Source: Haloplanus vescus (GTDB lineage: Archaea; Halobacteriota; Halobacteria; Halobacteriales; Haloferacaceae). Taken from it: 64,000 bases of DNA. Of the stretch, positions 26,181-62,457 are shown one piece after another (position 1 is the stretch's first letter; the number at the start of each line of letters is the position of its first letter). Below the pieces are notes generated by a model that saw nothing but the letters and a program-made list of their open reading frames with translations, ran no database searches and had not been told where the DNA came from. The translations under genes and the position numbers were made by a program. Location of the stretch: the NCBI RefSeq assembly GCF_900107665.1, contig NZ_FNQT01000001.1, positions 417,742-481,741 of the forward strand. Reading direction: 5' to 3'.

Positions 26181-27263
26181 ATGGAGGCTGAACACCCCGG
26201 GGACGTCCTCGTGCCCGTCGGCGACTCGGAGACGCTGCGGCGGACGGTCGCTCACGCCGTCGAACGCGCCCACGACTCGTCGGCCGACGCCGACGAACCC
26301 GTGACGATACACTTCGTCTATCCCGCGCGGTGGCGCATCTTCGAGACGGACCCCGCGGCCGTCGCCGCCGCCGAGACGCTCCTCGACCGAGTCGTCGCTT
26401 GGGCGGAGGAGGACCTCGACGAACTGGTCGGCGAGGACGAACCACGCACCGTCACCGTGAAATCGGCGACCGTCGGGACGAACGAGTACGTCTTCAGTCC
26501 CGCCGACTTCGCGGACGTGGTCAGTCGCTACGCCGAGCACAACGACGTGAGAGAAATCGTCGTCGACCCCTCGTTCCGCCCCGGGGGAAGCGTCCCGCTC
26601 CTCCGGTCGTTCGAGGAGGAACTCGCGCGCCGCGGCTTCGACGTACTCGAAGCGCCGGTGACGCGACAGACGCGACGCCGCCTGCCCTTTACCGCCATCG
26701 GACTGCCGTCGTTCGCGTTCGTGTTCGTCGTCACCTTCCTGTTTTACATCGCGCTCGGCGGGTGGCACCTGACGGACGGCTACGAAGTGCTGACGGGCGC
26801 CGTCACCGCGGGCGCCGTCACGCTGACGCTCGCTCGCGTCGCGCTCAAGGGTGACCTGCCCCGCCTGCGGGTCGTCGGCGTCACGCTCGGCCGAATCGCA
26901 CTCTACACGCCCATCCTGCTCTGGGAGATTGCGAAGGCGAACGTCTCCCTCGCGTACGTGGTGTTGCATCCCAGTCTCCCCATCGACCCGCGCACCGTCG
27001 AATTCGACGCCGCGGTGTGGGGTGACCTCCCCGTCACCACGCTCGCGAACTCCATCACGCTGACGCCGGGGACGCTGACAATCGACGTGAGCCGGCAGCA
27101 CTTCCACGTCCACGCGCTGATTCCCGACGCGGAAGACGACCTGCTCGAAGGCAAGCTCGAACGCTTCGTCCGCTTCGTCTTCTACGGCCGGGAGTCGGCG
27201 CGCATCGCGTCGCCCCGCGAACGACTCGCCCGAGACGAGGACACCACGGAGGGTGAGACCTAA
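26181..27263 (+). CDS. mnhE: Mrp-type cation/proton antiporter subunit E with N-terminal USP-like domain
   Basis: A 360-residue protein, about twice the usual MrpE length. Residues 1-165 look like a universal-stress-protein domain (DVLVPVGDSETLRRTVAHAVERAH; HFVYPARW; ADFADVVSRYAEHNDVREIVVDPSF). Residues about 170-360 are MrpE: two to three membrane segments (FAFVFVVTFLFYIALGGW), then ILLWEIAKANVSLAYVVL, LANSITLTPGTLTIDV and a C-terminal soluble part. It is first in the antiporter operon, and its TAA overlaps the ATG of mnhF. A short upstream frame (26135-26191) overlaps its start. The USP-like domain could let the complex respond to nucleotide or stress. Confidence 0.87.
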   Translation: MEAEHPGDVLVPVGDSETLRRTVAHAVERAHDSSADADEPVTIHFVYPARWRIFETDPAAVAAAETLLDRVVAWAEEDLDELVGEDEPRTVTVKSATVGTNEYVFSPADFADVVSRYAEHNDVREIVVDPSFRPGGSVPLLRSFEEELARRGFDVLEAPVTRQTRRRLPFTAIGLPSFAFVFVVTFLFYIALGGWHLTDGYEVLTGAVTAGAVTLTLARVALKGDLPRLRVVGVTLGRIALYTPILLWEIAKANVSLAYVVLHPSLPIDPRTVEFDAAVWGDLPVTTLANSITLTPGTLTIDVSRQHFHVHALIPDAEDDLLEGKLERFVRFVFYGRESARIASPRERLARDEDTTEGET

Positions 27264-27586
27264 TGTTGCCCGTACCCCTCGCCGCGGGCGGCGGCAGCGA
27301 GGTAGCCGTCTCGTCGACGCTGTCGACGATTCTCCTCCTCGCCGCGGGCGCGTTCGCCACCTTCGCCGTCGTGTTGCTGTACCGGGTCGTCCGCGGCCCG
27401 ACCACGCAGGACCGCATCGTCGCCATCAACGTGGTGGGGACGAACACGGTCATCGTCATCGCGCTGGTGAGCGTCGCCTTCGGCGAGTACGGCTACCTGG
27501 ACGTGGCGCTCGTCTACGCCCTGCTCAACTTCGTCATGAGCATCGCCGTCTCGAAGTTCACCGTCGAGTGGGGTGGCGTCATATGA
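27263..27586 (+). CDS. mnhF: Mrp-type antiporter subunit F
   Basis: A 107-residue membrane protein with three helices (about 15-40, 47-66 and 72-95). The MrpF core is LLYRVVRGPTTQDRIVAINVVGTNTVIVIALVSV, followed by YLDVALVYALLNFVMSIAVSKF. MrpF is a small structural subunit of the Mrp Na+/H+ antiporter. It overlaps mnhE (TAATG) and mnhG (ATGA), implying translational coupling. The predicted length is slightly above the usual 90-100. Confidence 0.92.
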   Translation: MLPVPLAAGGGSEVAVSSTLSTILLLAAGAFATFAVVLLYRVVRGPTTQDRIVAINVVGTNTVIVIALVSVAFGEYGYLDVALVYALLNFVMSIAVSKFTVEWGGVI

Positions 27587-27900
27587 CGCCGCTGGAGACG
27601 CTCGCTGCGGTGTTGGTCGTCGTCGGCACCTTCTTCGGGTTCGTCGCGACGGTCGGCATCATCCGGCTGCCTGACCTCTACTCGCGGCTCCACGCCGCCT
27701 CGAAGAGCGACACCCTGGGGTCGGTGCTCTCGCTCGCGGGCATTGCGCTCGTCCTGGGACTCGGCACCGAGTCGCTGAAGCTCGTCTTCCTGCTCGTCTT
27801 CCTGTTCGTGACGAGTCCGACCGCGGCCCACGCCATCGCCCGGGCCGCGAAAGAGCAGGAGGTCGAACCGGCGGGCGACGAGTTGGAGGGCGAGGAATGA
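27583..27900 (+). CDS. mnhG: Mrp-type antiporter subunit G
   Basis: A 105-residue MrpG with three membrane helices. The signature VGIIRLPDLYSRLHAASKSDTLGSVLSLAGI is visible at about 24-54, followed by KLVFLLVFLFVTSPTAAHAIARAA. The start ATG 27583 was chosen by the ATGA overlap with mnhF and the family start MTPLETL; the longer open frame is not supported. The C-terminal acidic tail is a haloarchaeal feature. It overlaps the DUF4040 gene by four bases. Confidence 0.92.
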   Translation: MTPLETLAAVLVVVGTFFGFVATVGIIRLPDLYSRLHAASKSDTLGSVLSLAGIALVLGLGTESLKLVFLLVFLFVTSPTAAHAIARAAKEQEVEPAGDELEGEE

Positions 27901-28433
27901 GCGCCGAGTTCCTCGTCGCTGCCGTCCTCGTGTTCATGGTCGGCAGCGCGCTGGCCGCGGCGCTCCTTCGTGACGTGGTCGCCAGCATCGTCGCCTTCGC
28001 GGGGTACAGCTTCGGCGTCGCCGTCCTCTGGTCGTTCCTCCGCGCGCCCGACGTGGCGCTCACCGAGGCAGCGGTCGGCGCGGGCATCACCACCGTCCTC
28101 TTCTTGCTCACCATCGCGCGAACCACCGTCTCGCGCTCGGAGCGCTTCGAGGGCGTCAGCCTCCGGTCCGGACTGGCTGTCGTCGCCATCGTCGTCACCG
28201 TCGGCGCGACGGTGCCGGCGCTCCCGGCGATGGGCGCCGGCGGGACGCCGGTCCTCGGCGGCGAGGTGAGCCAGTACTACCTCGACAACGCCTACGACCA
28301 GACGGGCGTGACCAACGTCGTGACCGCCATCCTCGTCGGCTACCGCGGGTTCGACACCCTCGGCGAGGCGGCAGTCGTCTTCGCCGCCGGCATCGCGATG
28401 TTGCTCGTGCTCCGGCAGGAGGAATTCGTATGA
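27897..28433 (+). CDS. DUF4040 (MbhD/MbhE-like) antiporter subunit
   Basis: A 178-residue membrane protein equivalent to the C-terminal part of MrpA, split off as a separate subunit. The first half matches MbhD (LVAAVLVFMVGSALAAALLRDVVASIVAFAGYSF, then RAPDVALTEAAVGAGITTVLFLLTIARTT). The second half contains the MbhE-like region VTNVVTAILVGYRGFDTLGEAAVVFAAGIAMLLVL. Related subunits occur in Mbh/Mbs complexes and in Mrp operons that lack a full MrpA. No full-length MrpA is encoded in this operon. It overlaps mnhG and mnhB by four bases each. Confidence 0.88.
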   Translation: MSAEFLVAAVLVFMVGSALAAALLRDVVASIVAFAGYSFGVAVLWSFLRAPDVALTEAAVGAGITTVLFLLTIARTTVSRSERFEGVSLRSGLAVVAIVVTVGATVPALPAMGAGGTPVLGGEVSQYYLDNAYDQTGVTNVVTAILVGYRGFDTLGEAAVVFAAGIAMLLVLRQEEFV

Positions 28434-28954
28434 GCGAACGAGATGACCAATCCGACGACGAACTGGAAGGCCAGCTCTCCCGCCCCGGCGAGGAGCGCCC
28501 GCCCTACGTCGAGAGCACCATCATCATGACGACCGTTCGGGTGATTGCCCCCTTCGTGCTCACCCTCGGCCTGTTCGTGATGTTCCACGGTGCGAGCTCC
28601 GCGGGTGGCGGCTTCCAGGGCGGCGTCATCGCCGCGACGACAGTCGTCATGCTCGGGTTCGCGTACGGTATCGAACCCATCGCGGCCTATCTTCGAAACG
28701 AACAGCTCGCGGCGCTCGTCCTCGGCGGCCTCGGGACTTTCCTTCTCGTGGGCTTCGGCTCCTACGCCTTCGGCGGGACGTTCCTCGAATTCACGCTCTA
28801 CCCGATTCACCATGGCAGCAAATACAGCATCGAACTCGTCGAACTCGGTATCGGGGTCGTCGTCTCCGGGGTCATCACCGGCCTCTTCTTCCTGTTGGGG
28901 ACGGGCCTCGACAGCGCGTACGACGCCACCGAACCGGGGGAGGAGGACCGCTGA
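28430..28954 (+). CDS. mnhB: Mrp-type antiporter subunit B
   Basis: A 174-residue MnhB protein. A polar acidic N-terminus (1-25) precedes ESTIIMTTVRVIAPFVLTLGLFVMFHGASSAGGGFQGGVIAATTVV, the family signature with the helix-breaking GGGFQGG at about 58-64. Four membrane helices are predicted. The ending LGIGVVVSGVITGLFFLLGTGL is typical. Length is about 30 residues above bacterial MrpB because of the acidic leader. The gene is adjacent to mnhC with no gap (stop at 28954, ATG at 28955). Confidence 0.92.
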   Translation: MSERDDQSDDELEGQLSRPGEERPPYVESTIIMTTVRVIAPFVLTLGLFVMFHGASSAGGGFQGGVIAATTVVMLGFAYGIEPIAAYLRNEQLAALVLGGLGTFLLVGFGSYAFGGTFLEFTLYPIHHGSKYSIELVELGIGVVVSGVITGLFFLLGTGLDSAYDATEPGEEDR

Positions 28955-29320
28955 ATGATAGAACTACTGACGACGAAGTACACGTACCTCGTCGTGGTCG
29001 CCCTGTTGGCCATCGGCGCGTACGTCATGATAGAGAGCGACAACTTCGTGAAGAAGATAATCGGCCTGAACGTCTTCCAGACGGGCATCTTCGTGTTCTT
29101 CATCTCGTCGGCGTTCCGCACCGGCGGCGAGTCGCCCGTCGTCCAGAGCGGCGGTGGTGGCGGCCCCTTCGTCTCGCCGCTTCCGCACGTCCTCATCCTG
29201 ACGGCCATCGTCGTCGGGGTGAGCCTGACCGCCGTCGCCCTCGGCCTCGTCATCCGCATCTACGGGAGTTACGGCACGGTCAACGAGGACACCCTCGCGG
29301 AGGTGCGAGCCGATGACTGA
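28955..29320 (+). CDS. mnhC: Mrp-type antiporter subunit C
   Basis: A 121-residue MrpC, homologous to complex I NuoK. Three helices are visible: YLVVVALLAIGAYVMIESDNFVKKIIGLNVFQTGIFVFFISSAF holds the first two, and PHVLILTAIVVGVSLTAVALGLVIRIY is the third with the conserved ALTAIVVG-like stretch. A Gly-rich loop of five glycines at about 71-75 lies between helices two and three. It overlaps mnhD1 by eight bases. Confidence 0.92.
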   Translation: MIELLTTKYTYLVVVALLAIGAYVMIESDNFVKKIIGLNVFQTGIFVFFISSAFRTGGESPVVQSGGGGGPFVSPLPHVLILTAIVVGVSLTAVALGLVIRIYGSYGTVNEDTLAEVRADD

Positions 29321-30809
29321 CGCGTTCGTCCCGCTGTTGGTCACCGTCCCGATGCTCGGCGCGGTGCTCGCCGTCGCCACCGGGTTGGCGAGCGAGCGCG
29401 GCCCGCCCGCCGTCGCCGGCGGCACGCTCGCCGTCCAGACGGTCCTCGCCGTGTGGATCGGCACCGACGCCATCGCCAACGGCCCGCTCTCGACCGAGGT
29501 GGGCGGGTTCGTCGCGCCCTACGGTATCGAACTCGTCGTCGACGGCCTGTCGGCGGTGGTCGTCACCCTCGTCGCCGTCGTCTCTCTCACCATCCTCGTG
29601 TACGCGATTCGGGACGACCCCAGCGGGACGCCGTTCTACACGGAGTACCTGCTGTTGGTCACCGGGCTGTCGGGGATGGCCGTCACCGGCGACGTGTTCA
29701 ACCTCTACGTCTTCCTCGAAATCTCGGGGCTGGCGACGTACGCCCTCGTCGCGAGCGCCGGCACCGGACGGTCGGCCGTCTCGGCGCTCAAGTACCTCAT
29801 GTTCGGCACCGTCGCCGCGTCGCTCTACCTGCTCGGCGTGGGCTACGCCCTCGTCGCGACGGGGACGCTCAACATGGCCGACCTGTCGGTCAAGCTCGCG
29901 GAGGCAGGCTACGACTCGACGCTCGTGCTCGCCTCCTTCGGCTTCATCGTCGTCGGCCTCGCGACCAAGACGGCGCTGTTCCCGCTCCACACGTGGCAAC
30001 CCGACGCGTACAACGACGCCCCGGACAGCGTGAGTGCGCTCATCGCCGCGCTCGTCTCGACGGTTGCCGGCTACGCACTCCTGCGACTCGTCTACACCGT
30101 CTACACGCCCGCCTTCTTCGAGGCGGTGCCCGTCGCGCGGACGGCACTCATCGTCTTCGCGTGCGTGAGCATCGTCGTCGGGAGCGTCCTCGCCGTCGCC
30201 CAGTCGGAAATCAAGCGGATGCTCGCGTACTCCTCCGTCTCGCAGTACGGCCTCGTCGTCGTCGGCCTCGCCATCGGCACGCGCGCCGCCGTCTTCGGCG
30301 CTATCGTCCACCTCGTCGGGCACGCGATTATGAAGGGTGGGCTGTTCGTCACTGCGGGCACCGTCGACGACGTGCTCGGCGCGAAGACGGTCGACGAGTA
30401 CGCCGGCCTCGCCGACCGCTACCCCGTGCTCGGGGGCGCGAGCGCCGTCCTCATGCTCGCGATGGTGGGCATCCCGCCCGCCGTCGGCTTCGCCGGCAAG
30501 TGGTATATCGCCCTCGGCGCGGTGCAGGCCGGGGCGTGGCCCGTCGCCGTCGTCATCTTCGGGTCGACGCTCCTGACGCTCGCGTACTTCGCACGCGTCA
30601 TCGAGCGGATGTACGTCGCGCCGGCGACGGCGCGCGACGTGGCCGCGGCGGACGGCGGCTTAGGCGATGACCTCCTCCCGACGACACCCCCGCGGAGCCT
30701 CGTCGCCCTCGTCGTGGGCGCAGCCGTCGTCGCCATCGTCCTCGGCCTCGCCGTCACCGACCTCCAGACAATCCTCGAACCGACCCTCGATAGCCTCCTC
30801 TCGCCATGA
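29313..30809 (+). CDS. mnhD: Mrp-type antiporter subunit D, first copy
   Basis: A 498-residue MrpD homologue, related to NuoL/M/N, with about 14 helices. The two residues essential for proton transfer in MrpD are conserved: E136 in VFLEISGLATYA and K219 in GLATKTALFPLHTWQPDAYNDAP. The positions match those in the bacterial protein almost exactly. LAYSSVSQYGLVVVGLAIG is the conserved TM11-TM12 region, and KGGLFVTAG the TM-12 lysine region. It is the canonical D subunit of the three here. The stop TGA and the following ATG overlap by four bases. Confidence 0.93.
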   Translation: MTDAFVPLLVTVPMLGAVLAVATGLASERGPPAVAGGTLAVQTVLAVWIGTDAIANGPLSTEVGGFVAPYGIELVVDGLSAVVVTLVAVVSLTILVYAIRDDPSGTPFYTEYLLLVTGLSGMAVTGDVFNLYVFLEISGLATYALVASAGTGRSAVSALKYLMFGTVAASLYLLGVGYALVATGTLNMADLSVKLAEAGYDSTLVLASFGFIVVGLATKTALFPLHTWQPDAYNDAPDSVSALIAALVSTVAGYALLRLVYTVYTPAFFEAVPVARTALIVFACVSIVVGSVLAVAQSEIKRMLAYSSVSQYGLVVVGLAIGTRAAVFGAIVHLVGHAIMKGGLFVTAGTVDDVLGAKTVDEYAGLADRYPVLGGASAVLMLAMVGIPPAVGFAGKWYIALGAVQAGAWPVAVVIFGSTLLTLAYFARVIERMYVAPATARDVAAADGGLGDDLLPTTPPRSLVALVVGAAVVAIVLGLAVTDLQTILEPTLDSLLSP

Positions 30810-32461
30810 CAGAAATCGCCTCACTCAGACCGGCGCTCCCAATCGCCATCGCGGCGCTCGCCATCGTACCGATTCTCGCCTCTCGCAGGCGGCCGAACCT
30901 CCGCGAGGCGTGGACGGTGCTCGCGGCGGCGAGTGCGTTCGTCGTCGTCGCCAGCATGCTTCCCGGCGCCATTGCCGGGACGACGCGGGTCGCCTCCTTT
31001 GGCTTCCTCGTCGCTGGTGTCGAACTCTCCTTGCAGGCCGACCCGCTCGGCCTCCTCTTCGCCACCGTCGCGAGCCTCCTCTGGCTCGTCACCAGCTTCT
31101 ACAGCATCGGCTACATGCGGGGCCTCTCCGAACACGCCCAGACGCGCTACTTCGCGTCGTTCGCCGCGAGCGTCGCCGCCGCTCTCGGCGTCGCCTTCGC
31201 CTCCAACCTCGTCACGCTGTTCGTCTTCTACGAACTCCTGACGGTGGCGACGTACCCGCTCGTCACCCACGACGAGACGCCCGAAGCGCGGGCCGCCGGT
31301 CGGAAGTACCTCACTTACACCTTCGGCGGCGGCGTGGCCGTCCTCGCGGGCACCGTCATGGTCGCCACGATGGCCGGCACGACGTCGTTCACCGCCGGCG
31401 GCATCGCCGGCCTCGCCACCGCCGACCCGATGCTCGCGCGGGCGGCGTTCACCCTCCTCATCGTCGGCTTCGGCGTGAAGGCGGCGCTCATGCCGCTTCA
31501 CTCGTGGCTCCCCGACGCGATGGTGGCGCCGACGCCCGTCTCCGGTCTGCTCCACGCCGTCGCCGTCGTCAAGAGCGGTATCTTCGGCATCGCGCGCGTC
31601 GTCCTCGACGTGTACGGCGTCGACCTGACTGGCTCGCTCGGGATGGGGCTTCCCCTGGCCGTCGTCGCCGCCGCGACGCTGCTCATCGCGAGCATCATCG
31701 CGCTCCGACAGGACAACCTCAAGCGCCGCTTGGCGTACTCGACGGTGTCGCAGCTCTCCTACATCGTCCTCGGCATCGCCATCCTCGACCCGCACTCTAT
31801 CGTCGGCGGCCTCCTCCACATCCCCGCTCACGCGTTCATGAAGCTCACCCTCTTTTTCACCGCGGGCGCCATCCACGTCGAGACCCACACCGACGACATC
31901 AGCGAGATGGCGGGCATCGGCAAGCGGATGCCGCTGACGATGCTCGCGTTCGGCGTCGCCGCCGCGGGCATGGCCGGTATTCCGCTGGTCGCCGGCTTCG
32001 TCAGCAAGTGGTATCTCCTCATCGGGAGCGTGGACGCCGGACAGGCCGTCTTCGCCGTCATCCTTCTCCTCTCGGGCATCCTCAACATCGCGTACTTCTG
32101 GCCCGTGTTCTATCAGGCGTTCTTCGAGAGCGAGGACGCCGCCGACGCCAAGCCGCTCATCGAGTTCTCGCTCGGCGGCGAGGAGCGCTCTATCCTGCCC
32201 AAGCACGACGACCACGACACGGGCGCGGTGACCGACGGCGGACACGGTGAAGCGGACGAACACGACGGCCATCACGGCGGCCCGCCGGCCGACGGCTGGG
32301 AGCGTCGTGGGTGGCGCGGCGGCGAGAGCACGTGGTTCATGCTCGGCCCGATTCTCGCGGCCATGACGGGGGCCGTCGTCCTCGGCGTGATTCCGCGGAC
32401 GGCGGTGTTCCTCCGACTCATCGAGGTCATCGTTGCGGCGGCGACGGGGGTGCACGTCTGA
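30806..32461 (+). CDS. Proton-translocating antiporter subunit D, second copy
   Basis: A 551-residue NuoL/M/N-family protein. The ion-path Glu and Lys are present (E143 in FVFYELLTVATYPL; K225 in GFGVKAALMPLHSWLPDAM), and TVSQLSYIVLG follows. The family core ends near residue 450. After that, a hydrophilic His-rich loop of about 60 residues (PKHDDHDTGAVTDGGHGEADEHDGHHGG) precedes one more membrane helix at the C-terminus. It resembles Mbh/Mrp D-type and NuoN-like subunits more than the first copy. The tail loop may face a compartment and bind metal, which is inference. Confidence 0.88.
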   Translation: MTEIASLRPALPIAIAALAIVPILASRRRPNLREAWTVLAAASAFVVVASMLPGAIAGTTRVASFGFLVAGVELSLQADPLGLLFATVASLLWLVTSFYSIGYMRGLSEHAQTRYFASFAASVAAALGVAFASNLVTLFVFYELLTVATYPLVTHDETPEARAAGRKYLTYTFGGGVAVLAGTVMVATMAGTTSFTAGGIAGLATADPMLARAAFTLLIVGFGVKAALMPLHSWLPDAMVAPTPVSGLLHAVAVVKSGIFGIARVVLDVYGVDLTGSLGMGLPLAVVAAATLLIASIIALRQDNLKRRLAYSTVSQLSYIVLGIAILDPHSIVGGLLHIPAHAFMKLTLFFTAGAIHVETHTDDISEMAGIGKRMPLTMLAFGVAAAGMAGIPLVAGFVSKWYLLIGSVDAGQAVFAVILLLSGILNIAYFWPVFYQAFFESEDAADAKPLIEFSLGGEERSILPKHDDHDTGAVTDGGHGEADEHDGHHGGPPADGWERRGWRGGESTWFMLGPILAAMTGAVVLGVIPRTAVFLRLIEVIVAAATGVHV

Positions 32462-34164
32462 TGGCTGGTCCGCTCACCGCGCTCCCGCCCGGCATCCTCG
32501 TCCTCGCGGCGGCGATGGCGACGGGACTCGCCGGCCGTCGCCTCGGCCACCTGCTCGGCGCTCTCACGACGGCGCTGGTCACCGTCTGGATTTGGGTCGC
32601 TCCCGCGGGCACCCACCTCTCGGGCCAGCTGTTCGGCTTCGACGCCGTCTTCTTCATGGTCGACCCCTTCTCGCGGGTCGTCGGCCTCGTCTTCGCCTTC
32701 ATCGCCACCGTCGCCGTCACCTACTCGTGGGCGACGGAGGCGAACAACCACCAGACGGCGTACGCGCTCACCTACGTCGGGTCGAGTCTGGGCGCCGTCT
32801 TCGCCGGCGACTGGCTGACCATGGCCGTCTGGCTCGAAGCCATGGCCGTCACGAGCACGATTCTCGTCTGGCACTACGGCGGGAAAGCCATCCGTGCGGG
32901 CTTCCGATACGCGCTCCTCCACGGCATTGGCGGGAGCCTCGTCCTCGCGGCGGTGGCGTGGCACTACGTCGAGGTGGGGTCGTTCCTCCTGAGCGCCGCA
33001 CCCGGCGGCATGGCGGGGACGATTCCGCAGGTGCTCATGGCCATCGGCATCGGCGTCAACGTGGGCTTCATCGGCCTGCACGCGTGGCTGCCCGACACCT
33101 ATCCGCGGCCCCACATCGCGGCGAGTGTCTTCCTCTGTGTCTACACGACCAAGACGGGCGTCTACGTTATGTACCGCGCGTTCCCCGAGGGCAACCTCTG
33201 GGTGGCATACATGGGTGGCGCGATGGCCGTCTTCGGCGCCGGTGCCGCCCTCCTCCAGAACGACATGCGCCGCCTGCTCTCCTATCACATCCAGTCGCAG
33301 GTCGGCTACATGGTCGCGGGGGTTGGCATCGGCACCGCCCTCGCCACCGCGGGGGCGTTCGGCCACGTCTTCAATCACATCCTCTACAAGAGCCTGCTGT
33401 TCATGACGGCGGGCGCCGTCGTCTACCAGACGGGCGAGGAGAACCTGAAACACCTCGGCGGACTGGCGCGGAAGATGCCCGTCACCGCCGCGGCGTTCAC
33501 CATCGCGGCGCTGGCCATCGCCGGCTTCCCCGGCTTCAACGGCTTCGTCAGCAAGGGGATGGTCATCGGCGCCGCCCACCACGAACACCTCGACGCGCTC
33601 TGGTATCTCCTCCTCCTCGGCGGCGTCGGCACCTTCCTCTCGTTCATCAAGTTCGGCTACTACGCCTTCCTCCACGGGCCGTACGAGGGCGAGGCGTCGG
33701 TGTCGCAGGCACCCCGAATCCAGCAGGTTGCGATGGGCTCCGTGGCCGTCCTGCTGGTCTTCTTCGGTGTCGTCCCCGACGCCCTCTTCGCCATCCTGCC
33801 GCTTGAGGGCGCCTACGAATTCCACACGTTCACCCTCGGCCACGTGGGTGAGGGACTCGCGCTGGCGGCGGCGGGCGTCGTCGGCTTCGTCGTCCTCAAG
33901 AAGCCGCTGTCGAAAGTCGGGCGCGTCCCCGACATCGACGCGGTGTACAACCCGCTGGCCTTCTACGGCACGCGGGCCGTCGTCCACGCCGTGACGGAGA
34001 CGTACGCGGCAGTCGACCGCGCCGTCGTCGGCGTCGTCGAGCGTGCGATAGCCTTCCGCGCCGACCCGACCGAACTCTCGCGGCTGCGGGCGAACATCGG
34101 GAGCAGCATCTTCATCCTGATGGTCGTCCTCGCGGGTGTGTTGGCGTGGCTCGGCGTGGTGTGA
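32461..34164 (+). CDS. Proton-translocating antiporter subunit D, third copy, with altered TM7
   Basis: A 567-residue NuoL/M/N-family protein beginning at ATG 32461 (TGATG overlap). The TM5 glutamate is kept as E126 in [11 protein letters not shown]. The TM7 lysine found in the two sister copies is replaced by N200 in [20 protein letters not shown]. The downstream K231 ([15 protein letters not shown]) remains. TM11-TM12 elements are [17 protein letters not shown] and [10 protein letters not shown]. Length and C-terminal extension (about 450-567) exceed ordinary MrpD. It ends the antiporter operon. A T-tract (atctttttg, 34190-34198) follows and may mark termination. Confidence 0.88.
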
Positions 34165-57410: not shown

Positions 57411-59426
57411 ATGGCTGGCGCATTCGACTTCGCACCCGTCATCGTCCTCCTCCCGTTCCTCTCGTTCGTCGTCTCGCTGGCGGCCGGGAAGTACCTGCCC
57501 AAGGGCGGCGCGTTCGGCGGCATCGCTGCCACCGCGGGGTCGCTCGCCGTCTCGGCGTGGGTGTTCCTGACCGTCAGCCAAGGCAACGTCTACAACGAGA
57601 CGCTCTACACGTGGGTCGCGGGCGGGGAGACGAGTCTCTCCTTCGGCCTCCTGCTCGACCCGCTGGCGGCGATGATGCTGCTCATCGTCTGTCTGGTCTC
57701 GATGCTGGTTCACGTCTTTAGCCTCGGGTACATGAACGACGAGGGCGAGACGGGCCTGCCGCGCTACTACGCCGGGCTTGGCCTCTTCACCGCCTCCATG
57801 CTCGGGTTCGTCGTCGCCGACAACCTGCTCATGGCGTTCATGTTCTTCGAGCTGGTCGGGCTCTGTTCGTATCTCCTCATCGGCTTCTGGTTCCGACAGG
57901 ACGGCCCGCCGAGCGCCGCGAAGAAGGCGTTCCTCGTCACCCGCTTCGGTGACTACTTCTTCCTCGTCGGCGTCGTCGCCGTCTTCGCCACCTTCGGCAC
58001 CGCGAAGTTCGCGGGCGAAGGGGCGTTCCCGGTGCTCGCCGAGGAGGCACTCCACGGCAGCGCCGAGGCGGTCCGGACGTTCGGCTTCGCCCCCGAGACG
58101 TGGTTCACTATCGTCGGCCTCCTGATTCTCGGCGGCGTCGTCGGCAAGTCCGCGCAGTTCCCACTGCACACGTGGCTGCCCGACGCGATGGAGGGTCCGA
58201 CGCCCGTCTCCGCACTCATCCACGCCGCGACGATGGTCGCCGCTGGTGTCTATCTCGTCGCGCGGATGTACGGTTTCTACGCGCTGTCGCCCACCGCACT
58301 CGGCATCATCGCCTTGGTCGGTGGCTTCACCGCGCTCTTCGCCGCGACGATGGGCGTCGTCAAGAAAGAAATCAAGCAGGTGCTCGCCTACTCCACCATC
58401 TCGCAGTACGGCTACATGATGCTGGGACTCGGCGCCGGCGGCTACGTCGCCGCGAGCTTCCACCTGCTGACCCACGCCTTCTTCAAGGCGCTGCTTTTCC
58501 TCGGTGCTGGCTCGGTCATCATCGCCATGCACCACGACGAGAACATGTGGAACATGGGTGGCCTGAAAGACCGGATGCCCGTCACCTACTACACGTTCCT
58601 CTCGGGGTCGCTCGCGCTCGCGGGCATCGTCCCCTTCGCGGGCTTCTGGTCGAAAGACGAGGTGCTCTACGAGGCGCTCGTTCACGGCCTCGGTGGCTCG
58701 CCGCTCCTGCTTGCGGGCTACGCGATGGGGCTGGTGGCCGTCTTCTTCACCGGCTTCTACACCTTCCGGATGGTGTTCCTCACCTTCCACGGGGAACCGC
58801 GAAGCGAGACTGCCCGCGACCCGCACGGCGTGCGCTGGAACGTGAAGGGGCCGCTGGTCGTCCTCGGGATTCTCGCCGCGACGATTGGCTTCGTCAACAT
58901 GGTGCCGGTCCAGGACCTGACGGGGATTCACCTCGAATACCTGCACGACTGGCTGGCCCACGGTGAGATTTCGGCGCTCACCGCCGAACACTACAGCGAA
59001 CTGCTCCACGACTACGCCCACTACACGTCTGCCGATGTGGCGTCCTACGTCGCGGGCGCGGTATCGCTCGCTCTCGCCCTCGCGGGCGCGGGCGCCGCAC
59101 ACGTCCTCTACAACGTCCCGGACCCCGACGAGCATACCGAAAAGCTCGGCGCGGTCAAGACGCTGTGGTACAACAACTACTACCAGGACGAGTACCAGGT
59201 CTGGATCGCCCAGTCGCTCGTCCTGCCAATCGCTCGCGTGGCGGACACGTTCGACCAAGGCGTCGTCGACGGCGTCGTCAACGGCGTCTCCAGCGTGAGC
59301 CTGTTCGCCGGCAGTCGCATCCGACGCATCCAGACTGGTGTCGTGACTAACTACGCCGTCCTCCTCTCCCTCGGGCTGACGGCGTTGCTCGTCGTCTTCG
59401 GACTCGTTGGGGGGTGGTTCGCATGA
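57411..59426 (+). CDS. nuoL: NADH-quinone oxidoreductase-like subunit L
   Basis: A 671-residue distal proton-pumping subunit with about 16 helices. TM5 glutamate is in MFFELVGLCSYLLIGFW and TM7 lysine in GGVVGKSAQFPLHTWLPDAMEGPTPVSALIHAATMVAAGVYL. The lateral-helix C-terminal extension (about 500-671) is present. Length is normal. It overlaps nuoM by four bases. Confidence 0.95.
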   Translation: MAGAFDFAPVIVLLPFLSFVVSLAAGKYLPKGGAFGGIAATAGSLAVSAWVFLTVSQGNVYNETLYTWVAGGETSLSFGLLLDPLAAMMLLIVCLVSMLVHVFSLGYMNDEGETGLPRYYAGLGLFTASMLGFVVADNLLMAFMFFELVGLCSYLLIGFWFRQDGPPSAAKKAFLVTRFGDYFFLVGVVAVFATFGTAKFAGEGAFPVLAEEALHGSAEAVRTFGFAPETWFTIVGLLILGGVVGKSAQFPLHTWLPDAMEGPTPVSALIHAATMVAAGVYLVARMYGFYALSPTALGIIALVGGFTALFAATMGVVKKEIKQVLAYSTISQYGYMMLGLGAGGYVAASFHLLTHAFFKALLFLGAGSVIIAMHHDENMWNMGGLKDRMPVTYYTFLSGSLALAGIVPFAGFWSKDEVLYEALVHGLGGSPLLLAGYAMGLVAVFFTGFYTFRMVFLTFHGEPRSETARDPHGVRWNVKGPLVVLGILAATIGFVNMVPVQDLTGIHLEYLHDWLAHGEISALTAEHYSELLHDYAHYTSADVASYVAGAVSLALALAGAGAAHVLYNVPDPDEHTEKLGAVKTLWYNNYYQDEYQVWIAQSLVLPIARVADTFDQGVVDGVVNGVSSVSLFAGSRIRRIQTGVVTNYAVLLSLGLTALLVVFGLVGGWFA

Positions 59427-60952
59427 TTATTGAAGCGCTGATAGCCGTCACGTTCGCCGCCTCGATGGCCGTGTTGCTGGCGCCCGACCGGGTCGCCGGC
59501 CGGCTCGCGGCGGCGCTGAGTCTGCTCCCCGTCGTGGGGAGCCTCTACATGTGGAGTCGCTTCGACGCGTCGGGCAACGCCCTCACGGGCGGCTCGATAG
59601 CGTTCGAGACGATGGTGCCGTGGCTGGAACTGGGCGGCTACACGCTCAACTGGCACGTTGGCGTCGACGGCATCGCCCTGCCGCTGGTCGTGTTGACGAC
59701 GGTGCTCACGACGCTGGCAATCGTCAGCGCGTGGACGCCCATCGACGACCGCCAGTCGCAGTTCTACGGCCTCATGCTGTTCATGGAGGCGAACCTGCTG
59801 GGCGTGTTCACCGCGCTCGACTTCTTCGTCTGGTTCGTCTTCTGGGAGGCCGTCCTCCTGCCGATGTACTTCCTCATCGGCGTCTGGGGCGGCCCGCGTC
59901 GGAAGTACGCCGCCATCAAGTTCTTCGTCTACACCAACATCGCGTCGCTCGCGATGTTCATCGGCTTCATCGCGCTGGTGTTCGGGCTCGGCGATTCGGT
60001 GTCGACGCTCGACATGCCGGCCATCGCACAGGCGCTCCGGGCGGGTGAACTCGGCGGCCTCCACGGCATCTCCGCCGGGACGCTTCGCTCGGTCGCCTTT
60101 ATCGCGATGTTCCTCGGCTTCGCGGTGAAGGTGCCCATCGTCCCCTTCCACACGTGGCTGCCGGACGCCCACGTGGAGGCGCCGTCGCCGGTGTCGGTGA
60201 TGCTGGCGGGCGTCCTCCTGAAGATGGGGACGTACGCCCTGCTCCGGTTCAACTTCACGATGCTGCCCCAGACGGCCGTGCAGTTCGCGGTGCCGATTGC
60301 GCTGATTGCCGTGATCAGCGTCATCTACGGCGCGATGCTCGCACTGGCCCAACAGGACCTCAAGCGCATCGTCGCGTACTCCTCCGTCTCCTCGATGGGC
60401 TACGTCATCCTCGGACTGATAGCGTACACCGTCTACGGCGTCGGTGGCGCCACTTTCCAGATGATCGCCCACGGCCTCATCTCGGGGCTGATGTTCATGT
60501 CGGTCGGCGTCATCTACAACACGACCCACACGCGCATGGTGGGCGACATGTCCGGGATGGCCGACCGGATGCCCGTCACGGTGGGCATCCTCATCGCCGG
60601 CGCGTTCGGCTACATGGGCCTGCCCCTGATGGCCGGCTTCGCTGGCGAGTTCTTCATCTTCAAGGGCGCCTTCGAGTCGACGGTCACCGGCGCGATGCCG
60701 CTGTTCACGGCGGCCGCGATGTTCGGTATCGTCGTCGTCGCGGGCTACCTGCTCTTCGCGATGCAGCGGACGCTCTTCGGGGCGTTCCGCCTCGAAACCG
60801 ACTACGAGGTGGGTCCGGCGGCACTCCACCAGACGGTGCCGCTGGCCATCCTCCTCGTGACTATCATCGCCCTCGGCGTCGCGCCCGACATCTTCTTCGG
60901 GATGATTCGTGACGCCGTTGCGCCGCTCCTCGAATTCGGAGGTGAGCTCTAG
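59423..60952 (+). CDS. nuoM: NADH-quinone oxidoreductase-like subunit M
   Basis: A 509-residue antiporter-like proton-pumping subunit. The TM5 glutamate is in FVFWEAVLLPMYFLIGVWG and the TM7 lysine in GFAVKVPIVPFHTWLPDAHVEAPSPVSVMLAGVLLKMGTYALLRF. ATG 59423 was chosen by its ATGA overlap with nuoL; a GTG at 59414 is possible. The stop is a TAG at 60950-60952. Confidence 0.94.
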   Translation: MIIEALIAVTFAASMAVLLAPDRVAGRLAAALSLLPVVGSLYMWSRFDASGNALTGGSIAFETMVPWLELGGYTLNWHVGVDGIALPLVVLTTVLTTLAIVSAWTPIDDRQSQFYGLMLFMEANLLGVFTALDFFVWFVFWEAVLLPMYFLIGVWGGPRRKYAAIKFFVYTNIASLAMFIGFIALVFGLGDSVSTLDMPAIAQALRAGELGGLHGISAGTLRSVAFIAMFLGFAVKVPIVPFHTWLPDAHVEAPSPVSVMLAGVLLKMGTYALLRFNFTMLPQTAVQFAVPIALIAVISVIYGAMLALAQQDLKRIVAYSSVSSMGYVILGLIAYTVYGVGGATFQMIAHGLISGLMFMSVGVIYNTTHTRMVGDMSGMADRMPVTVGILIAGAFGYMGLPLMAGFAGEFFIFKGAFESTVTGAMPLFTAAAMFGIVVVAGYLLFAMQRTLFGAFRLETDYEVGPAALHQTVPLAILLVTIIALGVAPDIFFGMIRDAVAPLLEFGGEL

Positions 60953-62457
60953 TGACACCACTACAGATCCAACTGCCGACCTGGACCGCCGTCGCACCGA
61001 CGCTCCTGCTCGGGCTGACGGCGCTCGTCCTGTTGCTCGTCGACAGCATCGACCCTGACTCGACCCGCCCGGGACTGCTCGCGGGTATCTCGGCGCTGGG
61101 AAGCGTCGCGACGCTTGCCGTCGCTGGGTGGTTCCTGCTTGCGGGCACCGGTCAGGATGGCGGCGCCATCGAACTCTACGGTGGCTCGCTCATCGTCGAC
61201 GGGCTGAGCCTCTTCTTCACCGTCGTCTTCGCCAGCGTCGCCGCGCTGGTGTCGATAGCGAGTTACGACTACCTGCGCGACCGGACGTACCAGGCGGAGT
61301 TCTACGCGCTGGTGATGCTCGCGGCGACCGGGATGAGCCTCATGGCATCGTCGGGGTCGCTCGCGACGGTGTTCGTCAGCCTCGAACTCGCCTCGCTCCC
61401 CTCGTACGCGCTCGTGGCCTTCCTCAAGAAGAACCGCGGGAGCGTCGAGGCGGGGCTGAAATACTTCCTCGTCGGCGCCGTCTCCTCGGCGGTGTTCGCG
61501 TTCGGTATCTCGCTCGTCTACGCCGTCACGGGCTCGCTCCTCCTCTCGGAAGTGGCGAGTTCCATCGGCTCGGCGGGTGACCTCGTCGGCGTCGCGGGCG
61601 TGGGCGTGCTGATGATTGCGGGCGGCTTCGCGTACAAGACTGCCTCCGTGCCCTTCCACTTCTGGGCGCCGGAGGCCTACGAGGGCGCACCCGCTCCCAT
61701 CAGCGCCTTCCTCTCCTCGGCGTCGAAGGCGGCCGGCTTCGCCGTCGCCTTCCGCGTGTTCGCGGTGGCCTTCCCCATCGAATCGGTCGTGCCGATGGGC
61801 ATCGACTGGCCGCTGCTCTTTGCCGTCCTCGCCGTCGTCACGATGACGCTCGGCAACTTCGCGGCGGCGACCCAGGAGAACGTCAAGCGGATGCTGGCGT
61901 ACTCCTCCGTGGGACACGCCGGCTACGCGCTCATCGGCCTCGCGGCCCTGTCGAGCGGCGGGCCGAACGGTGACGTGATGGGCGCGAGCATGGCCCACCT
62001 GTTCGTCTACGGCTTCATGAACACCGGCGCCTTCCTGTTCATCGCGATGGTCGAGCGCTGGGAGGTCGGTCGGACGTTCGAGGACTACCAGGGCCTCGCG
62101 ACGCAGGCGCCGATGGCCTGCGTGGCGATGACCGTGTTCATGTTCTCGCTCGCCGGCCTGCCGCCGTTCGGTGGCTTCCTCTCGAAGTACGCCCTGTTCT
62201 ACTCGGCGATTCAGGGTGGCTTCTGGTGGCTCGCCGCCGTCGGCGCCATCAACAGCGCGCTGTCGCTGTTCTACTACTCCCGCGTCGTGAAGGCGATGTG
62301 GATAGAGGACCCGGCAGACTCGCTCGACCTGGGCACGACGCCGCTGGGCATCTACGTGGCTGTCCTCGCGGCCGCCGTCGGCACGCTCCTGCTCCTGCCG
62401 GCGTTCGGTCCGGTCGTCGAGACAGCACAGAGCGCCGCGACGGCGCTGTTCGCGTAG
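60952..62457 (+). CDS. nuoN: NADH-quinone oxidoreductase-like subunit N
   Basis: A 501-residue antiporter-like subunit starting at GTG 60952, which shares one base with nuoM's stop. TM5 glutamate is in VSLELASLPSYALVAF and TM7 lysine in GGFAYKTASVPFHFWAPEAYEGAPAPISAFLSSASKAAGF. It ends the operon; a C/T-rich stretch (tccccttttctc) follows at about 62464-62475 and may act as a terminator. Confidence 0.94.
   Translation: MTPLQIQLPTWTAVAPTLLLGLTALVLLLVDSIDPDSTRPGLLAGISALGSVATLAVAGWFLLAGTGQDGGAIELYGGSLIVDGLSLFFTVVFASVAALVSIASYDYLRDRTYQAEFYALVMLAATGMSLMASSGSLATVFVSLELASLPSYALVAFLKKNRGSVEAGLKYFLVGAVSSAVFAFGISLVYAVTGSLLLSEVASSIGSAGDLVGVAGVGVLMIAGGFAYKTASVPFHFWAPEAYEGAPAPISAFLSSASKAAGFAVAFRVFAVAFPIESVVPMGIDWPLLFAVLAVVTMTLGNFAAATQENVKRMLAYSSVGHAGYALIGLAALSSGGPNGDVMGASMAHLFVYGFMNTGAFLFIAMVERWEVGRTFEDYQGLATQAPMACVAMTVFMFSLAGLPPFGGFLSKYALFYSAIQGGFWWLAAVGAINSALSLFYYSRVVKAMWIEDPADSLDLGTTPLGIYVAVLAAAVGTLLLLPAFGPVVETAQSAATALFA

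Follow-up and report, generated by a model that had tools for sequence, protein, structure and literature searches.

An asparagine at the TM7 lysine position in a family of antiporter-like subunits of haloarchaeal Mrp operons and 'green' complex I

In passages of PMC9568556 and PMC7419157, the lysine of transmembrane helix 7 (TM7) and the glutamate of TM5 in antiporter-like subunits are called a strictly conserved pair, central to coupling models of Mrp antiporters and complex I. In a 64,000-nucleotide stretch of the 2.78 Mb genome of Haloplanus vescus, hereafter the window (positions 417,742 to 481,741 of contig NZ_FNQT01000001.1, our C1), an Mrp operon ends in three genes for MrpD-like subunits, D1, D2 and D3, the last of which (32461..34164; this and the other genes of the operon lie on the forward strand) encodes a protein of 567 amino acids (aa) with an asparagine, N200, at the position of that lysine. 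This raises the questions of whether the asparagine is a local loss or a property of the subunit family, whether another base has taken the place of the lysine, and how such a subunit could be coupled to its neighbours. On the sequences compared here, N200 does not reflect a loss confined to this genome but is fixed throughout an old family common to archaea and bacteria, of which it is a hallmark.

The TM7 position of D3 and its conservation

The coordinates, frames and residue numbers of D1, D2 and D3 given in a preliminary description, made from the sequence of the window alone, proved exact. As it had proposed, the TM5 glutamate is present in all three copies (E136 in D1, E143 in D2 and E126, at 32836..32838, in D3), and the TM7 position is occupied by K219 in D1, K225 in D2 and N200 (codon AAC, 33058..33060) in D3. 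The other lysine it had listed as kept, K231 (33151..33153), is retained and is the canonical TM8 lysine, aligned with NuoM K265, not a substitute for the lysine of TM7. Compared with a canonical pumping subunit, D3 has the TM5 glutamate (E126) and the TM8 and TM12 lysines (K231 and K365, the latter at 33553..33555 and aligned with NuoL K399) and lacks the TM7 lysine. The register was checked in an alignment that included NuoL, NuoM, NuoN and HycC of Escherichia coli K-12, in which D3 columns 126/200/231/365 correspond to E144/K229/T260/K399 of NuoL, E144/K234/K265/E407 of NuoM and E135/L208/K239/E391 of HycC, the same TM5, TM7 and TM12 columns giving E133/K217/K395 of NuoN; N200 also aligns without gaps with the TM7 lysine of Bacillus pseudofirmus MrpD. 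The Nuo residue numbers used to validate the register are those of textbook numbering. The HycC residues recovered are the ones named in a section of the formate hydrogenlyase paper PMC9474812.

D3 belongs to the NCBIfam family NF009310 (PRK12668, 'Na(+)/H(+) antiporter subunit D'), scoring 685 bits against a curated cut-off of 564, and contains a Proton_antipo_M domain (PF00361; 134.8 bits against a gathering score of 21.5). The NF009310 cut-off was exceeded in 148 of 392 genomes sampled from the phylum of the window, in 30 of 59 from the phylum of a Syntrophus-named metagenome-assembled genome (MAG) and in 2 of 59 from the phylum of a Verrucomicrobiaceae genome. We assembled 117 D3 rows, comprising the window, 30 loci from a sample drawn with the family hidden Markov model (HMM) and 86 reading frames from 80 loci, these being the best 80 of 530 related stretches from a scan of species genomes. 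Because the patterns of that scan covered the TM7-TM8 loop region and the TM8 lysine, counts for K231 are biased and those for N200 only indirectly so; the family-HMM samples are free of pattern bias and their rows are only the loci returned (30, 20 and 2), and some of the 117 rows represent one species twice (e.g. L015/L052 and L017/L057).

Position 200 is asparagine in 116 of the 117 rows, the exception (L080) being a frameshifted fragment, as well as in all 27 further rows (two of which repeat L108 and L112) and in the D3 half of four out of four D2-D3 fusions. E126, H154 (32920..32922) and K231 are each kept in 116 of the 117 rows, as is K365, with a gap in the remaining row, and H302 (33364..33366), a histidine of the central axis, is found in all 117; the same residues are present in 27 of 27 further rows. 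Carriers of N200 include haloarchaea, methanogens, ANME-1, Thermodesulfobacteriota, rhizobia, Verrucomicrobiota and Balneolota, with identities to the window D3 as low as 32%. The alignment of haloarchaeal third copies that the preliminary description had proposed therefore finds N200 conserved, outside haloarchaea as well as within them, and lysine, whose presence in most third copies it had named as a refutation, occurs in no intact D3 copy. A haloarchaeal peculiarity, such as the salt adaptation of one lysine, was ruled out by the identical asparagine in bacterial and other archaeal D3. Of 85 D3 genes, 66 encode the residue with AAC and 19 with AAT, and this use of both codons for a constant amino acid indicates that the asparagine itself is selected, far beyond chance. 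That N200 is a sequence or alignment error has next to no likelihood: the identical residue recurs in well over 100 genes, and the explanation is already refuted by the register check against the four E. coli proteins.

Origin of the family and the search for a substitute base

A tree of 85 rows, 20 of them D3, built by a quick method, recovered D3 as one clade with a long stem (Shimodaira-Hasegawa-like approximate likelihood ratio test (SH-aLRT) support of 100), within which haloarchaea, methanogens, ANME-1, Altiarchaeota, Desulfobacteraceae, rhizobia, Verrucomicrobiota and Balneolota are mixed. Relatives scoring below the family cut-off have lysine at TM7 in all 42 stretches examined, and among 31 aligned subunits outside D3 the lysine is present in 29, with glutamine in two DabB-like proteins. 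The single clade and the lysine in 42 of 42 sub-cut-off relatives rule out a recent loss in one lineage, and the Lys-to-Asn change most likely took place on the stem of the D3 family. The tree draws D3 as sister to bacterial MrpD (support 80, long branches), a relation not used here, and NF009307, considered as a nearer relative, scored above its cut-off in none of 59 genomes. An intermediate relative at 287 bits (genome G419, locus L243) has a charge-poor set, with serine at TM7, threonine at TM8 and glutamine at TM12 of its D3-like protein, and is uninformative on the order of events. Its locus holds four antiporter-like proteins without most of the channel charges, a set that has possibly decayed or been repurposed.

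The preliminary description had also named, as a refutation, a shifted lysine filling the TM7 place. We scanned 116 D3 rows for columns in which 95% or more of the residues are basic and compared these columns with the other subunits; they are R149, H154, H207, K231, R239, R270, H276, H302, K310, K365, K397 and H461, of which only H154 and H276 stand in columns without basic residues in other subunits. The scan found no D3-specific invariant lysine or arginine in TM3-TM8, which rules out a shifted lysine at the sequence level. Within the TM4-TM8 half, H154 on TM6 is the only basic residue that is both invariant in D3 and confined to it (116 of 116 D3 rows, against none of the 29 other subunits that have a residue in this column). 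It immediately precedes the column of NuoL Arg175; this neighbouring column holds histidine or arginine in NuoL, HyfB and HyfD. In part of the DAB2 structure paper PMC13144422, Arg175 and Asp178 on TM6 of NuoL pair with Glu144 and Lys229. The candidate partner of E126 would therefore be a histidine, H154, and not a lysine.

An altered or missing TM7 lysine is already known from HycC (Leu208) and MbsH (Glu219), and both the D3 family and its position in green complex I have been described before. Two subunits encoded in the same genome as D3, outside the window (L007 and L008), which we take to be DabB-like, have glutamine at TM7; they have also lost the TM5 glutamate, whereas D3 keeps it. HycC of E. 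coli formate hydrogenlyase resembles D3 in lacking the TM7 lysine and keeping the TM5 glutamate (Glu135), according to a section of PMC9474812, but it has leucine instead of asparagine and a glutamate at TM12, and it falls in a different clade, with HyfB. MbsH of the Pyrococcus furiosus membrane-bound sulfane reductase also has a non-lysine residue at TM7, Glu219 (part of PMC7684303); unlike in D3, the substitute is charged, in a subunit that is otherwise MrpD-like.

MrpD2 of the rhizobial green complex I is of the same family as D3 and forms the same D2-D3 pair in place of NuoL, with E122, H151, N195, K226 and K359 in Sinorhizobium meliloti, whereas the window D3 sits in an Mrp operon without redox subunits. 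The NF009310 cut-off is exceeded by D3 of S. meliloti, of the Syntrophus MAG and of the Verrucomicrobiaceae genome and by the D3 half of a fusion, and the name of the model is silent on both the missing TM7 lysine and the link to complex I. The rhizobial green complex I with MrpD2 reportedly goes back to Degli Esposti and Martinez Romero in 2016. In the portion of PMC9040806 consulted, green complex I has two MrpD-like subunits in place of NuoL, and MrpD2 is counted as an ion-pumping subunit, with no mention of lysine or asparagine. No statement that asparagine replaces the TM7 lysine in the NF009310 family was found in a search limited to open-licence literature, part of whose text was covered.

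Predicted fold, operon and gene context

An AlphaFold2 model of D3 from 59 sequences (mean predicted local distance difference test (pLDDT) 91.6, predicted template modelling score (pTM) 0.88) places TM15 at residues 459-485, a lateral helix at 493-534 (33937..34062) and TM16 at 546-566, the helix names being our own assignment. A lateral helix and TM16 following TM15 characterize terminal subunits of the NuoL/MrpA type, and the top solved match of the model is NuoL of mycobacterial complex I (Z 46.9, root-mean-square deviation (rmsd) 5.2, 534 residues), with Bacillus MrpD matching the core (Z 45.6, rmsd 2.2, 446 residues). D3 is therefore predicted to share its fold, TM15, lateral helix and TM16 with NuoL and the N-terminal part of MrpA, from which it differs in having asparagine where they keep the TM7 lysine. 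Passages of PMC7684303 and PMC9474812 say that the length of this helix (HL) tracks the number of antiporter-like subunits; as a gauge of the subunits spanned by D3 it was dropped, since tail lengths overlap between contexts.

The 80 scanned loci were classed as 47 Mrp operons, 8 loci with complex-I-type redox subunits and 25 unclear cases, many of them on short contigs; two of the unclear loci (L086 and L103) have all Mrp small subunits and one weak NuoI-like match. A slightly looser rule, counting one best row per locus and dropping second D3 copies within a locus, gave 50 Mrp operons, of which 41 are haloarchaeal. Operons ordered E-F-G-A-B-C-D1-D2-D3 are found in haloarchaea, Altiarchaeota, Balneolaceae and Verrucomicrobiaceae, and Deltaproteobacteria have the identical gene set, with MrpB moved up in some. 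On pSymA of S. meliloti the order is NuoJ-K-D2-84 aa-D3-M-N-A-B-C-D-E-F, and D2-D3 also lies between NuoK and NuoM in the Syntrophus MAG, in a deltaproteobacterium and in a genome from the Verrucomicrobiaceae search. The recurrent complex-I-type order, which is that of green complex I, is J-K-D2-(small protein of 82-93 aa)-D3-M-N and puts D3 next to D2 where NuoL would otherwise stand. A single fused D2-D3 protein of 1094-1096 aa occurs in Methanoregula-type archaea (L102, L104, L107 and L116), and three of these four fusions were classed with redox subunits nearby. From the fusions and the gene order, we infer that D3 is the distal subunit of a row D1-D2-D3.

Genes for the small protein between D2 and D3 lie at L109:9596-9844, L120:9616-9870 and L244:8360-8638; the L109 copy has no Pfam match, and the window has no small gene between D2 and D3. 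The D2 half of the two fusions shown has asparagine in place of the TM8 lysine. Two D3 genes occur per locus in L083, L088, L094, L090, L093, L097, L098 and L099, close together in the first three, and L083 has four antiporter-like subunits in the order D1-D2-D3-D3. Among the genomes close to that of the window in which no protein exceeds the NF009310 cut-off, four (L148-L151) have instead a long MrpA-like open frame of 787-846 aa with lysine at TM7.

In the window, MrpE, F, G, B and C and a C-terminal piece of MrpA are all present, identifying the operon as that of an Mrp antiporter complex (CPA3). Its genes are, in order, MrpE (26181..27263; PF01899 at residues 183-330; NF009295, 421.3 bits), MrpF (27263..27586; PF04066), MrpG (27583..27900; PF03334), the MrpA C-terminal piece with MbhD and MbhE domains (27897..28433; PF13244, PF20501, NF009159), MrpB (28430..28954; PF04039, NF009160), the NuoK-like MrpC (28955..29320; PF00420; NF005621, 183.4 bits against a cut-off of 126), D1 (29313..30809), which exceeded no cut-off among the 25 best NCBIfam models listed, D2 (30806..32461; NF005561, 914.9 bits) and D3. 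About 180 extra N-terminal residues of MrpE (26181-26725) have no Pfam match, and this long extension presumably resembles a universal-stress-type domain. Approximately 24 kb downstream of D3 (~57816-62265), the window also holds genes of NuoL, NuoM and NuoN type, named by alignment.

Only D2 has the full canonical set (E143, K225, K256 and K401) among the window copies; D1 has E136 and K219, with T250 (30060-30062) replacing the TM8 lysine. This threonine is found in D1 of 41 of 41 haloarchaeal Mrp operons, and the TM8 lysine in D1 of nine of nine other Mrp operons, whilst the TM7 lysine of D2 is present in 40 of the 41 haloarchaeal operons (the remaining one having a gap) and in all nine others. 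With D1 lacking the TM8 lysine and D3 the TM7 lysine, the haloarchaeal Mrp complex comprises one complete and two incomplete antiporter-like subunits.

Coupling at the altered site

Mrp models, in the excerpts of PMC7419157 and PMC9568556 considered, have the TM5 Glu/TM7 Lys pair of one subunit sense either the Na+ site or the TM12 lysine of the neighbouring subunit, and part of PMC5703873 lists K219A of Bacillus MrpD among mutations at residues extremely important for antiport. With asparagine at TM7, the Glu/Lys proton swap cannot occur in D3, and the strict conservation of E126, H154, N200, K231, H302 and K365 speaks against simple decay. The reading we prefer, with confidence evenly divided for and against it, is that D3 represents an old, separate family in which this pair has been turned into a Glu/Asn site, giving a differently coupled, distal subunit that has a proton-conducting interior and probably adds no pumped ion. 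D3 would be tied onto the complex by its lateral helix, distal in the row D1-D2-D3, and would keep a proton-conducting interior; E126 and the lysine/histidine chain of TM8, TM11 and TM12 are conserved. The D2-D3 interface would be without the lysine with which the TM5 glutamate exchanges a proton every cycle and, given the invariance of E126 and of the remainder of the chain, most likely holds a recast Glu126/His154/Asn200 site. Through this site D3 would join the electrostatic relay differently, still conducting or storing charge and probably, unlike a canonical subunit, adding no pumped ion of its own. On this reading D3 would be a functional distal subunit whose TM5/TM7 coupling site is Glu/Asn, perhaps with histidine involvement, in place of Glu/Lys. 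Of the alternatives in the preliminary description, a non-pumping or a differently coupled subunit, the latter fits best, and the former neither gained nor lost support.

Several points weigh against this reading. The tree was computed with the TM7 column included, and one diverged relative, the charge-poor L243 protein, has serine at TM7. On an ideal helix H154 points approximately 100 degrees away from the Arg175 column and may therefore not reach E126, and the order D1-D2-D3 within the complex is itself deduced. In a section of PMC9474812, mutation of the TM5 glutamate of HycC gave no significant drop in H2 production; as HycC also lacks the TM7 lysine, a kept glutamate need not imply a working site.

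The HycC result also bears on a proton-inert D3, a spacer or stabilizer that holds the complex by its lateral helix without conducting ions. HycC tolerates loss of E135, K239 and K336 in the H2 assay (the same section of PMC9474812) and Bacillus MrpD cannot do without its TM7 lysine (K219A, in the part of PMC5703873 cited), yet E126, K231, H302 and K365 of D3 are conserved to the same degree as N200, whereas the truly decayed-looking L243 set has lost such charges at TM7, TM8 and TM12, and we consider an inert spacer unlikely. An ordinary pump with a swapped base, in which His154 fully replaces the TM7 lysine, also seems improbable: H154 is invariant and confined to D3, and the adjoining TM6 column is histidine or arginine in NuoL, HyfB and HyfD, but the side chain of H154 may not reach E126, and since H154 and N200 stem from the same single origin, their co-occurrence gives no independent support. 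Glu126 and Asn200 might instead bind Na+ or K+ as a second cation-handling site, given that simulations described in part of PMC9568556 proposed Na+ binding by the glutamate of the MrpD Lys/Glu pair and that removal of the lysine would favour a cation; with D3 fixed also in complex I operons, where no Na+ module has been described, we regard such a site as very unlikely.

The proposition that the whole subunit class, across haloarchaea and a number of bacterial lineages, dispenses with the Glu/Lys switch to which pumping in the complex I superfamily is attributed, and uses a Glu/Asn/His site instead, is tentative, and we give it less than even credence. D3 constitutes a widespread natural experiment without the TM7 lysine and a natural test of the role of that lysine. 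Extra MrpD-like subunits of rhizobial and Manganitrophaceae complex I are counted as extra pumped ions in a portion of PMC9040806, a count that rests on subunits of the D3 family. Relatives in Haloferax, Haloarcula and Sinorhizobium are tractable, making the question directly testable. If D3 is coupled as proposed, the number of ions moved per cycle by three-subunit Mrp complexes and by green complex I would be smaller than one expects from counting their subunits, and the haloarchaeal Mrp complex, in which D1 also lacks the TM8 lysine, would have only one complete canonical pump of three.

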